NCBI GenBank assembly: GCA_903841185.1
Contig: CAIMIV010000042.1
Location: 75,319 to 112,703, forward strand
Reading direction: 5' to 3'
Source: an uncultured bacterium
GTDB taxonomy: Bacteria > Patescibacteriota > Minisyncoccia > Moranbacterales > UBA2206
Length of the DNA stretch: 37,385 nucleotides
Positions 2,044-4,932 of the stretch are shown here, one piece after another (within the stretch, counting starts at the first letter, position 1; the number at the start of each line of letters is the position of its first letter). Position numbers and translations under genes: made by a program. Under the pieces are notes generated by a model. It was not told where the DNA came from and made no database searches. It saw only the letters and a program-made list of their open reading frames with translations.

Positions 2044-3453
2044 ATGGAAATAAAAATAAATAACCAAAATTTAGAATATTTTGCCGGAGAGATTATTTTG
2101 GACGTGTGTCAGCGCAATGAAATCAAAGTGCCGACATTATGCAACATGAAAAAAGTGCATGAGGGTGTGTGCCGGTTGTGCGTGGTGGAAGCGGGTGGGC
2201 GGTTGGTGACCTCTTGCAATACGAAGGTGGCAGATGGCATGGAAATTGTGACGGAAAGTGAGCAAATTTCCCGTGCTCGAAAAATCAATTTGGAATTGTT
2301 GTGGGCGGACCATGCGGGCAAATGCATCACTTGCAAAAAAAATCGCCGGTGTGAGTTGCAAAATTTGGCTGGCACCAACCGGATGGATATTTTTAGTTTT
2401 GTGCCCAAGAAAGAAGAATTGACCAGTCAGGAAGAATTGGATTTGCTGAAAGACAATCGCATGCGCGTAGTGGTGGATGAAGCCAATGCGGCCATCTCTA
2501 GGACTACGGAGCTGTGCGTGGAATGCCGGCATTGCATCAATGTTTGCCCGACGCAGGAGTTTTCTTTCAATTACCGGGCGGGAGACGTAGTGGTGGGGAC
2601 ACCATATGAAAAACCCTTGGATTGCATTTTTTGCGGTCAATGTGTGAAACATTGTCCGACCGGTGCCATCACGGACAAAAATGATTTAACGGAAATTATA
2701 GCGCAGCTAGATGATGCGAACAAATTGGCCATCGCGCTATGGGATCCGGCTTTGCGAGAATCAGTGTCGCTGGAACAACCGGAAATTGATTCAGAACGAA
2801 AACTGATTGGCACACTGAAAGCCATTGGGTTTGAAGTGGTGCTGGATTTGCGTTTCGGGATGGAGCTTTTTTTGTCCGAAACCCAAAAAGCCATTCAGAA
2901 AAATCCGCAAAACAATCTCATTCTCAGCCATTGTCCGGCATTGAATTTATATATTAAAAAATATTATCCGCAGTTTCAAAAAAATATTCTGGACGTGTTG
3001 ACGCCGGAGGAATTGATGGCGCAATGGATCAAAACGCACTATGCGCAAAAGCACAAAATCAATCCGGCCAACGTGGTGGTGATAGCGATTTCAGCTTGCA
3101 CGGCGAAAAAAATCAAAAAAGATGCCAGTTTGAACTATGTGCTGACCATGCGCGAATTGGGTCGCATTATTCGGCAAAAAAACGTGAAATTGGCGGAAGT
3201 GACGGGAGATGAATTTTCTCGTGATCTTGCAGTGAAAAACAAGGCGGTAGAAAAAATGGTACATTGTGGCGGCGCGGCCGAGCTGCTGGCCAAGAGTTTG
3301 CAGTGTGAATATGTGGTGGCTAATGAAGTGAAAACCATAAAAAAACTGCTGGATAATTTGAGCAAAAAAAGAATCCAGACGAAAATCATTGAAGTCATGA
3401 TTTGTCCCGGTGGATGCGTGGGTGGGGGAGGACAATCGAAGCAAATTTTGTAA
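2044..3453 (+). CDS. Divergent short [FeFe]-hydrogenase-like iron-sulfur protein
   Basis: 469 aa. The N-terminal half is laid out like HydA/HndD/NuoG: a [2Fe-2S] domain (C33, C43, C46, C58), a His-Cys3 [4Fe-4S] site (H90, C94, C97, C103) and two ferredoxin [4Fe-4S] motifs (C158/161/164/168 and C194/197/200/204). The C-terminal half matches the H-cluster domain: RFGMELFLSE, LSHCPAL (L1), SACTAKKIK (L2), NYVLTMRELGRII and EVMICPGGCVGGGGQ (L3). The four H-cluster cysteines are C297, C352, C454 and C458. Three things are odd. The proton-relay Cys of the usual TSCCP motif is His296; the usual MPC of L2 is SAC; and the chain stops ten residues after the second L3 cysteine, so the usual C-terminal lobe is missing. 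It lies 20 bp after gatB and is followed by hypC-hypD. It could be an H2-evolving or sensory hydrogenase, or an inactive electron-transfer relic. Family membership is sure; activity is not. Confidence 0.85.
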   Translation: MEIKINNQNLEYFAGEIILDVCQRNEIKVPTLCNMKKVHEGVCRLCVVEAGGRLVTSCNTKVADGMEIVTESEQISRARKINLELLWADHAGKCITCKKNRRCELQNLAGTNRMDIFSFVPKKEELTSQEELDLLKDNRMRVVVDEANAAISRTTELCVECRHCINVCPTQEFSFNYRAGDVVVGTPYEKPLDCIFCGQCVKHCPTGAITDKNDLTEIIAQLDDANKLAIALWDPALRESVSLEQPEIDSERKLIGTLKAIGFEVVLDLRFGMELFLSETQKAIQKNPQNNLILSHCPALNLYIKKYYPQFQKNILDVLTPEELMAQWIKTHYAQKHKINPANVVVIAISACTAKKIKKDASLNYVLTMRELGRIIRQKNVKLAEVTGDEFSRDLAVKNKAVEKMVHCGGAAELLAKSLQCEYVVANEVKTIKKLLDNLSKKRIQTKIIEVMICPGGCVGGGGQSKQIL

Positions 3454-3534
3454 TTTTTAAATTTTTAATTTTGTAAATAATTTCTTAAATCCAAATTTTT
3501 AAACAGCAGTCTTTTTGTTTAAATGCGAGGTTTA

Positions 3535-3618
3535 GAAATTAAAAATTAAAGCATTATTTTCCGCTCTAGTCGGATCAGCCTCGGGCTGAAAAAATTCAAA
3601 AATTAAGAATTAAAAATT
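3535..3618 (+). repeat. Heptamer repeats and small hairpin before hypC
   Basis: The 172-bp spacer between the hydrogenase-like gene and hypC is very AT-rich. It has 7-nt units GAAATTA/AAAATTA at 3535-3548 and AAAAATT/AAGAATT/AAAAATT at 3598-3618, the last ending 7 nt before the hypC ATG. A GC-rich island between them includes a perfect inverted repeat, TCAGCC-TCG-GGCTGA (3575-3589). No terminator T-run follows it on either strand, so transcription may pass from the hydrogenase-like gene into hypCD. Confidence 0.5.
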
Positions 3619-3625
3619 TTAAACT

Positions 3626-3832
3626 ATGTGTCTAGCAATCCCGGGGAAAATTTTGAAAATCAAGGACCAAATCGCCGAAGTGGATTTTGATGGCATTGTG
3701 AAAGACATCAATATCGCTTTGGTGGATGTGACCGTGGGCGAATATGTGATGGTCCACGCCGGTTTTGCCATTGAAAAAATGGATATGGAGCAGGTGGACT
3801 ACATTCATTCGGTTATTAAAAAGAAGAAATGA
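3626..3832 (+). CDS. hypC: HypC/HupF family hydrogenase maturation chaperone
   Basis: HypC is a small chaperone. With HypD it carries the Fe(CN)2CO fragment to the large subunit of [NiFe] hydrogenases. The protein is 68 aa and begins MCLAIPGKIL, with the essential Cys at position 2. The body is the usual small beta-barrel (DFDGIVKDINIALVD, GEYVMVHAGFAIEKMD). Its last four bases overlap the hypD start (ATGA), so the two are translationally coupled. No [NiFe] large subunit or other hyp gene is in the window; a hydrogenase elsewhere in the genome is the usual expectation. Confidence 0.95.
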   Translation: MCLAIPGKILKIKDQIAEVDFDGIVKDINIALVDVTVGEYVMVHAGFAIEKMDMEQVDYIHSVIKKKK

Positions 3833-4932
3833 AAAGAATAGTTGATGAAATTCGAGAAAAGGCTAAAAAAATCGGTCGGCCGGTGCGATTGATGGAGCTT
3901 TGTGGCACACATTCGCAGACTATTGCGGAACATGGCATCAAGGAATTGATGCCGAAGAACGTCATTTTGGTTTCCGGGCCGGGCTGTCCGGTATGCGTCA
4001 CGGATCAAACGGACATTGATGTGATGGTGGGCTTGGCTTTGGCAGGGATTCCTGTGGCGGTCTATGGCGACACTATGCAAGTGCCGGGCAATTTGATGAG
4101 TCTGGAAGAGGCGGCGCAAAAAGGCGCGGATGTGAGCGTGGTCTATGACATCACGGAGGCGGTGCGGCTGCAAAAGGAGAAATCGAAACTAGTTTTTTTT
4201 GGCTTGGGTTTTGAGACTACGACGGGCATGACCGCTTGGGCGATTCAACAGGGACTGACAGTCTACAGCGCCCACAAGCTTTTCCCGCCGGCGATGGCGG
4301 CGCTTCTGGCAAATAATAATGCTGGACCTCACCCCAACTCTCTCCTCAAAAAGGAGAGGGGGCAGATGGAAAAAAACTTTCAGATCGATGGCTTTATTGA
4401 TCCGGGACACGTCAGCGCCATGATTGGCACGCGAGTGTATGAACAGTTTTCGATTCCGCAAGTAGTAGCTGGTTTTTCCGGTGAAGATGTCTTGCGGGCG
4501 ATTTCAATGCTACTTACCCAAATCTTGAAAGGTGAAAAAAAAGTGGAAAATGATTATTCGCGCTTAGTGAAAAAAGAAGGAAATGTTAAAGCGATGCAAC
4601 TGATTGCAGAAGTTTTTGAAACGGGGGATGCGCGCTGGCGCGGTTTGGGAGAAATCAAAAAATCCGGCTTGAAGATTCGCAAAAAATATCGGCGTCATGA
4701 TGCGGAATTTGTCCATCGCGATTTGATTGCGAAAATAAAAGCCGAAACTAAAATCAAGCCCTCCGCCTGCCAGTGCGGCTTGGTCTTGCAGGGTCTCATT
4801 GAACCGAAACAATGTCCCATGTTCGGACGTGCTTGCACCCCCGACAAGCCCCAAGGTGCCTGCATGGTGTCGGTGGAAGGCAGTTGCAACGTCGAGTTTC
4901 GGTATAAAAAAATAAAAATTATTTTTTTATAA
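3829..4932 (+). CDS. hypD: Hydrogenase Fe-cyanide/CO assembly protein HypD
   Basis: HypD is a [4Fe-4S] scaffold on which the Fe(CN)2CO group of [NiFe] hydrogenase is built, in complex with HypC. The diagnostic motifs are present: MELCGTHSQTI, GPGCPVCVT, GFETTTGMTAWAI, IDGFIDPGHVSAMIG, and the C-terminal Cys-rich block (SACQCGLVLQG, then CPMFGRACTPDKPQGACMVS and EGSC). Length 367 aa is normal. There is one oddity: about twenty residues around PHPNSLLKKERGQ, between LLANNN and IDGFIDPGH, do not belong to the family pattern and are encoded by a palindromic DNA element (separate entry). Transcription ends in a strong terminator 5 bp after the stop codon. Confidence 0.95.
   Translation: MKRIVDEIREKAKKIGRPVRLMELCGTHSQTIAEHGIKELMPKNVILVSGPGCPVCVTDQTDIDVMVGLALAGIPVAVYGDTMQVPGNLMSLEEAAQKGADVSVVYDITEAVRLQKEKSKLVFFGLGFETTTGMTAWAIQQGLTVYSAHKLFPPAMAALLANNNAGPHPNSLLKKERGQMEKNFQIDGFIDPGHVSAMIGTRVYEQFSIPQVVAGFSGEDVLRAISMLLTQILKGEKKVENDYSRLVKKEGNVKAMQLIAEVFETGDARWRGLGEIKKSGLKIRKKYRRHDAEFVHRDLIAKIKAETKIKPSACQCGLVLQGLIEPKQCPMFGRACTPDKPQGACMVSVEGSCNVEFRYKKIKIIFL
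4326..4367 (+). repeat. REP-like palindrome inserted in frame within hypD
   Basis: The segment starts with ACCTCACCCCAACTCT and contains the inverted repeat CTCTCCT (4340-4346) / AGGAGAG (4352-4358) with a 5-nt loop. The stem can be extended by a G-T and a C-G pair. CCTCACCCC-CTCTCC...GGAGAGGG sequences are a common intergenic palindrome type in bacteria. Here the element sits inside the hypD frame and adds residues absent from the HypD consensus without breaking the frame. Confidence 0.6.

Follow-up and report, generated by a model that had tools for sequence, protein, structure and literature searches.

Complex I, the Hox hydrogenases and the formate dehydrogenases share an iron-sulfur (Fe-S) relay of the NuoG/HydA kind, the far end of which has been swapped or worn away many times, mostly long ago. 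Archaeal complexes in which [FeFe] and [NiFe] hydrogenases are joined as hybrids were reportedly described by Greening et al. in 2024 (Cell 187:3357). In the closest system, the NiFe-HydABCSL of Acetomicrobium mobile (Bfu Type 3; PDB 7T2R), electrons run along the chain flavin mononucleotide (FMN)-B1-A1-A2-A3-S1-[NiFe]; its HydA has lost the H-cluster, and the A4-A5 arm has been called a nonfunctional remnant (PMC8880783). Group 3b hydrogenases have also been reported in Moranbacteria and Berkelbacteria, where they were modelled with a HyhG/HyhB diaphorase (PMC10811913). Here we analysed a stretch of 37,385 nucleotides (the window) from contig CAIMIV010000042.1 of assembly GCA_903841185.1, a metagenome-assembled genome (MAG) of 1.34 Mb in 71 contigs, 96% complete and classified as Ca. 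Moranbacteria/Moraniibacteriota within the candidate phyla radiation (CPR/Patescibacteria). At 2044-3453 the window encodes a 469-amino-acid (aa) protein derived from [FeFe]-hydrogenase, directly upstream of hypC and hypD. We propose, with a probability of roughly 0.8, that this protein descends from a HydA of the HydABC/group A6 type, is no longer a hydrogenase and now acts as a HoxU/NuoG-like Fe-S relay of a [NiFe] hydrogenase.

All window positions below are on the plus strand, and residues were assigned by residue-by-residue alignment to C. pasteurianum CpI. Pfam places Fer2_4, NADH-G_4Fe-4S_3, two Fer4 and Fe_hyd_lg_C domains on the protein, the last (PF02906) at E = 1.2e-44, far beyond chance. 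All 16 accessory-cluster ligands match those of CpI. They comprise the N-terminal [2Fe-2S] site A1 (2140-2217; C33/C43/C46/C58, aligned with CpI C34/46/49/62), a His-Cys3 [4Fe-4S] site (2311-2352; H90/C94/C97/C103, aligned with CpI H94/C98/C101/C107), which by analogy with NiFe-HydABCSL is taken as A3, on the arm leading to [NiFe], and the two [4Fe-4S] motifs A2 and A4 (2515-2655; C158/161/164/168 and C194/197/200/204, corresponding to CpI C147-C157 and C190-C200).

The remainder of the chain is the apparently retired H-cluster domain, hereafter H-domain (residues 229-469; 2728-3450). As the original prediction had it, the alignment retains the four H-cluster cysteines together with all accessory ligands: C297 (CpI C300; 2929-2934, with the preceding H296), C352 (CpI C355; 3097-3099) and, near the chain end, C454 and C458 (CpI C499 and C503; 3403-3417). 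The alignment likewise agrees that the L1 motif is LSHCP rather than TSCCP, with H296 at the proton-relay position of CpI C299, and that SAC replaces MPC in L2, with S350 at the position of CpI M353. The C-terminal lobe is indeed missing, as only 5 residues follow the CPGGCVGGGGQ block (L3) compared with 60-78 in full-length relatives; the internal segment before this block is 12 residues long, compared with 45-52. At the positions of CpI C299, M353, S319 and R286 the protein has H, S, L and K. It scores below the cut-offs of the curated families NF040763 (303 versus 765 bits), TIGR02512 (172 versus 406) and TIGR04105 (141 versus 450).

An AlphaFold2 model built on a 31-row alignment was confident in the H-domain (block means mostly 78-94); the N-terminal geometry was set aside because residues 130-194 scored below 50. 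The H-domain resembles known HydA structures, a comparison that had been suggested at the outset: the best Foldseek matches of the model were HydABC HydA and CpI, and VIA-align gave Z = 27.7 against the Desulfovibrio desulfuricans HydA, with a root mean square deviation of 3.4 over 289 residues. When the H-domain alone was searched by sequence against the PDB, every match below E = 0.1 was to an [FeFe]-hydrogenase; two other matches were at chance level. With E allowed to rise as far as 10, this sequence still found no match to 7t2r_A, a result that does not in itself prove that the folds differ.

Homologues in 55 related genomes occur in three forms. The short form seen in the window (S; about 464-483 aa, 46-70% identity to the query) was found in 11 genomes, this one and ten others, and a still shorter form (X; about 338-365 aa), aligning to residues 1-270 plus a short piece, in 16. 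Full-length HydA with TSCCP, MPC and the C-terminal lobe (F; about 570-600 aa) is present in nine genomes, eight of them F-only and one, G019, with both full-length and short kinds. The A1-A4 ligands are invariant across all three forms in the 31-row alignment. At the H-cluster site (CpI numbering), the four cysteines are kept in 11/11 S proteins, and K358 and M497 in 10/11 each; C299 and M353 are lost in 11/11 and S319 in 10/11, A230 has become Asp and Q325 Asp or Glu, both in 11/11. X proteins have lost all four cysteines. F proteins retain the four cysteines and the other positions, including C299 (9/9), M353 (9/9) and Q325 (8/9), with some changes at S319 and S232. The idea that His296 is a new proton relay was rejected, since the position is not conserved (H in only seven S proteins, and S, F, N and Y in one each).

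Phylogeny and selection set these forms apart from a gene in decay. In a tree of the HydA N-terminal part, S and X together form one side of a branch (support 97/90) and X one group (70/98). A quick NuoF tree again placed S and X on one side (SH-aLRT, an approximate likelihood-ratio branch test, 99), with X scattered and requiring at least three changes, against one on the HydA tree; the H-domain may therefore have been lost more than once. By a simple Nei-Gojobori count, the ratio of nonsynonymous to synonymous substitution (dN/dS) was 0.05-0.13 in the N-terminal part and 0.08-0.22 in the H-domain (0.08-0.21 for S pairs alone). Both halves of the gene are under purifying selection, and the short form is thus not a pseudogene.

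Gene neighbourhoods link S and X to a [NiFe] hydrogenase. A gene order common among relatives is gt2-galT-(vtt)-tpi-fba-nuoE-nuoF-hydA(S or X)-hypC-hypD-hypE-(hypF, opposite strand), continuing NiFeS-(M10 peptidase)-NiFeL-(desulfoferrodoxin)-hypA-gapdh-amidohydrolase, where NiFeS and NiFeL are the small and large subunits. Counting same-strand genes no more than 9 kb away, nuoF lies near 23 of 25 S/X loci, and hypC, hypD or hypE also near 23, the exceptions being G024 and G030 (the latter at a contig edge). Nine F loci have nuoF in eight cases, a tpi/fba context in two, and hyp or [NiFe] genes in none; S/X and F thus appear to be orthologous modules put to different uses. A [NiFe] large subunit is encoded in 25 of the 27 S/X genomes, the two others being 70% and 79% complete, and an equally strong match is found in none of the eight F-only genomes (G038 and G054 carry weaker, divergent ones). 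The recurrence of the gene-hypC-hypD order near [NiFe] small and large subunits, together with the presence of both subunits on the window's own contig, supports the hybrid [FeFe]/[NiFe] complex of the original prediction in a restricted form: an [FeFe]-descended subunit within a [NiFe] hydrogenase. In the operons at L041, L050 and L054, the [NiFe] genes are interleaved with tpi, fba, gapdh, a matrixin-like peptidase and desulfoferrodoxin.

In the window's genome, NiFeS and NiFeL occupy C42:46747-48822, on the contig that carries the S gene and 28.5 kb upstream of it, with hypE and hypF near C42:42-44 kb. The large subunit, in which the RICGICxxxH and DPCxSCxxH motifs are intact, terminates at the mature His; the small subunit contains 12 core cysteines. 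Both are closest to the alpha and delta subunits of Pyrococcus furiosus sulfhydrogenase I, which the large subunit matches at E = 2e-66, compared with 1.5e-37 for 5xf9_D; judged by sequence, they are 3b-type subunits with the Ni-Fe ligands in place. Throughout these genomes, 3b-like large subunits (for example L035:4564-5823) end at the His of DPCxSCxVH, and the short C-terminal tail of the 428-aa P. furiosus sulfhydrogenase I alpha is missing from them. PF10418, the marker of the 3b FAD (flavin adenine dinucleotide) diaphorase, is absent from this genome and from all S/X genomes, where NuoE-NuoF-HydA seems to stand in for that diaphorase. The alignment of the 416-aa NuoF to 7t2r_B (597 aa) covers residues 114-523 of the latter, and in one relative the only Pfam domains of NuoF are 51K, SLBB and NADH_4Fe-4S. 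NuoF is thus predicted to be without B2-B5, the HydB clusters that bifurcation requires in subunits of that type (PMC8880783, PMC11406978).

Recognisable [FeFe] maturases are missing. HydG was found neither in this genome nor in any S, X or F genome, HydE had no match above cut-off in S, X or F genomes, and HydF had none above cut-off in any of the 55. Weak HydF matches in all 55 genomes were discarded, since every one falls short of the cut-off and they resemble general GTPase cross-matches; a weak HydE match in G005 was taken as another radical-SAM protein. The search of this genome for hydEFG and a 3b [NiFe] hydrogenase, proposed with the original prediction, therefore returned the second and not the first. 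The F-form loci L047, L048, L049 and L066-L071 combine intact H-cluster motifs with no HydG and no HydE or HydF above cut-off. If F cannot make the [2Fe] subsite either, the maturases may have been lost first, leaving the H-domain free to degrade; F forms with an intact pocket but no recognisable HydE, HydF or HydG suggest this order.

We therefore favour a relay in which electrons would pass from NADH to FMN in the NuoF-like subunit, to the NuoF [4Fe-4S] cluster, through A1-A2-A3 of the S protein to the clusters of the 3b-type small subunit, and on to the Ni-Fe site, where protons would be reduced to H2, reversibly in principle. A side branch would be formed by the A4 arm together with the former H-cluster site, probably with an ordinary [4Fe-4S] cluster on C297/C352/C454/C458; the X form no longer has that site. 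Because the additional Fe-S domains of bifurcating HydB are missing from NuoF, plain NADH-linked H2 turnover, with no bifurcation, is expected. The position of the genes between fba/tpi and gapdh in relatives suggests disposal of glycolytic NADH as the role of the complex.

Several observations weigh against this model. At the C299, M353, S319 and R286 positions, TamHydS, a group D enzyme that is active, carries A, S, L and K (PMC11803613), so the loss of these residues alone is no proof of inactivity. The genome is a 96% complete MAG, which makes maturase absence a statistical statement, though one repeated in relatives. The parts are dispersed in this genome, with nuoE-nuoF on contig C52 and the [NiFe] genes 28.5 kb away. 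Eleven relatives carry the [NiFe] pair without S or X, and most of these also lack PF10418; the pair may therefore have a different partner. Finally, the strict retention of the four cysteines in S indicates that the old site still does something.

What that site might do defines the main alternatives. It could belong to an [FeFe] hydrogenase that, though short, remains catalytic or sensory, with a group-D-like pocket and a complete H-cluster, close to the novel short hydrogenase class first envisaged. The H-domain fold and the four cysteines are kept, as are K358 and M497 in 10/11 S proteins each, and the pocket (C299 lost, M353S, S319L, R286K) resembles that of active TamHydS (PMC11803613). 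Yet no S genome has HydG, or HydE or HydF above cut-off, C299, M353 and Q325 are lost in every S protein, the C-terminal lobe and an internal segment are deleted, the sister X form occupies the same operon without the whole site, and no sensor or PAS domain or adjoining regulator is present; we consider this quite unlikely. Alternatively, a [4Fe-4S] cluster at the old H site could gate the [NiFe] complex or report its redox state. Four ligands that stay strict in 11 S proteins at about 46-70% identity exceed what drift would leave, but X manages without the site in the same operon and no regulatory gene is linked. The redox sensor offered in the original prediction thus gains nothing from gene context and is, in our estimate, unlikely, although such a regulatory role could coexist with an electron relay.

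Two further explanations are less probable still. That S is decaying into a pseudogene and lies beside hypCD only by chance would fit its truncation relative to full-length HydA and the existence of full-length homologues with a normal TSCCP and C-terminus in the same taxonomic order, both kinds occurring together in G019. The refuting test set with the original prediction thus had a mixed outcome, as such homologues exist but group separately. The homologous frames are open, the operon is conserved across many genera, S and X form one group, separate from F, in two trees, and the H-domain evolves at dN/dS 0.08-0.22; conservation and purifying selection led us to reject a pseudogene in a random neighbourhood, and we give decay very little weight. 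It is similarly improbable that the S-form cysteines, Lys355 and Met452 hold an organometallic or H2-responsive site made without HydEFG, for example with an Fe(CN)2CO unit from HypCD. Were this so, one complex would contain two H2-reactive metal sites of different descent.

The downstream genes were identified as the original prediction described them, on the same strand and with unambiguous domain matches. hypC (3626-3832; 68 aa) encodes the [NiFe] cofactor chaperone (PF01455, 3.4e-24; TIGR00074 above cut-off) and hypD (3829-4932; 367 aa) a [NiFe] maturation protein (PF01924, 3.1e-118; TIGR00075, 382.6 bits against a cut-off of 192.8).

Nine relatives (G002, G003, G006, G011, G016, G020, G039, G043 and G046) carry a 3b-like [NiFe] pair and no HypD, and none of the nine has HypE above cut-off. 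In some, the HypD/HypE slot is filled by a second-type HypC (hypC2) and a protein of ~220 aa; such proteins at L054:10034-10699, L062:11056-11724 and L118:9398-10033 adjoin hypC2 and have no Pfam match. In an AlphaFold model of this family (mean predicted local distance difference test, pLDDT, 88), the C-terminal domain is most like HypC, at a Z of 6.3 that is suggestive only. G003 and G043 (L056:10361-11071, L063:6487-7212) have DUF6390 (PF19927) and EamA between hypC2 and NiFeS, the G003 DUF6390 with a weak HypC match at its C-terminus. In G016 (94% complete; L055:9037-11776), a HypC-HydE fusion followed by HydG lies beside the [NiFe] genes, and in the distant CPR genome G088 (100% complete, no HypD; L142:7382-10330), a HypC-HydE fusion and HydG face divergent [NiFe] genes. 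These arrangements beside [NiFe] genes in genomes without HypD suggest an alternative route to the Fe(CN)2CO unit, in which HydG/HydE chemistry would supply the diatomic ligands of the [NiFe] site.

Related genomes preserve one protein in intact (F), half-worn (S) and almost completely worn (X) states, which makes it possible to read and test in which order an [FeFe] active site was lost while its electron wire was kept. A match to the Fe_hyd_lg_C hidden Markov model in a CPR genome does not equate to [FeFe] hydrogenase activity.

Set against described enzymes, the locus combines features of several. Like NiFe-HydABCSL of A. mobile (PMC8880783, PMC9304861), it pairs a HydABC-type module with [NiFe] S and L subunits, encoded together in relatives and dispersed in this genome. 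A. mobile HydA keeps A1-A4, and a [4Fe-4S] remnant has been described at its old site. In S, X and F the ligands of A1-A4 are invariant, and the missing maturases suggest that S would lack the [2Fe] part. Unlike in that system, the H-domain here is still recognisably [FeFe] (PF02906, 1e-44), the small subunit is 3b-like with 12 cysteines rather than a one-cluster protein of 179 aa, and the flavin subunit is a 416-aa NuoF without bifurcation cluster domains rather than one of about 600 aa. With an [FeFe]-descended remnant, a 3b-like pair and a flavin subunit of non-bifurcating size, the system appears to follow the same plan in a separately assembled form. Domain order, nearest homologues (NF040763 at 303 bits; 8a6t_A) and, in relatives, adjacent nuoE-nuoF are shared with FeFe-HydABC of group A6, from which the S protein differs in its score (303 versus 765 bits), in the loss of the relay Cys, the Met and the C-terminal lobe, in having no HydEFG above cut-off and in its linkage to [NiFe] genes. 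Group 3d Hox enzymes (HoxEFUYH) likewise combine an NADH/FMN module, an Fe-S relay (HoxU) and a [NiFe] pair, but here a reduced HydA, not a plain HoxU, is the relay, and the [NiFe] pair is nearer to 3b than to 5xf9. The large and small subunits are like those of a group 3b [NiFe] (sulf)hydrogenase, and, in contrast to the group 3b enzymes modelled previously (PMC10811913), the diaphorase marker PF10418 is absent here.

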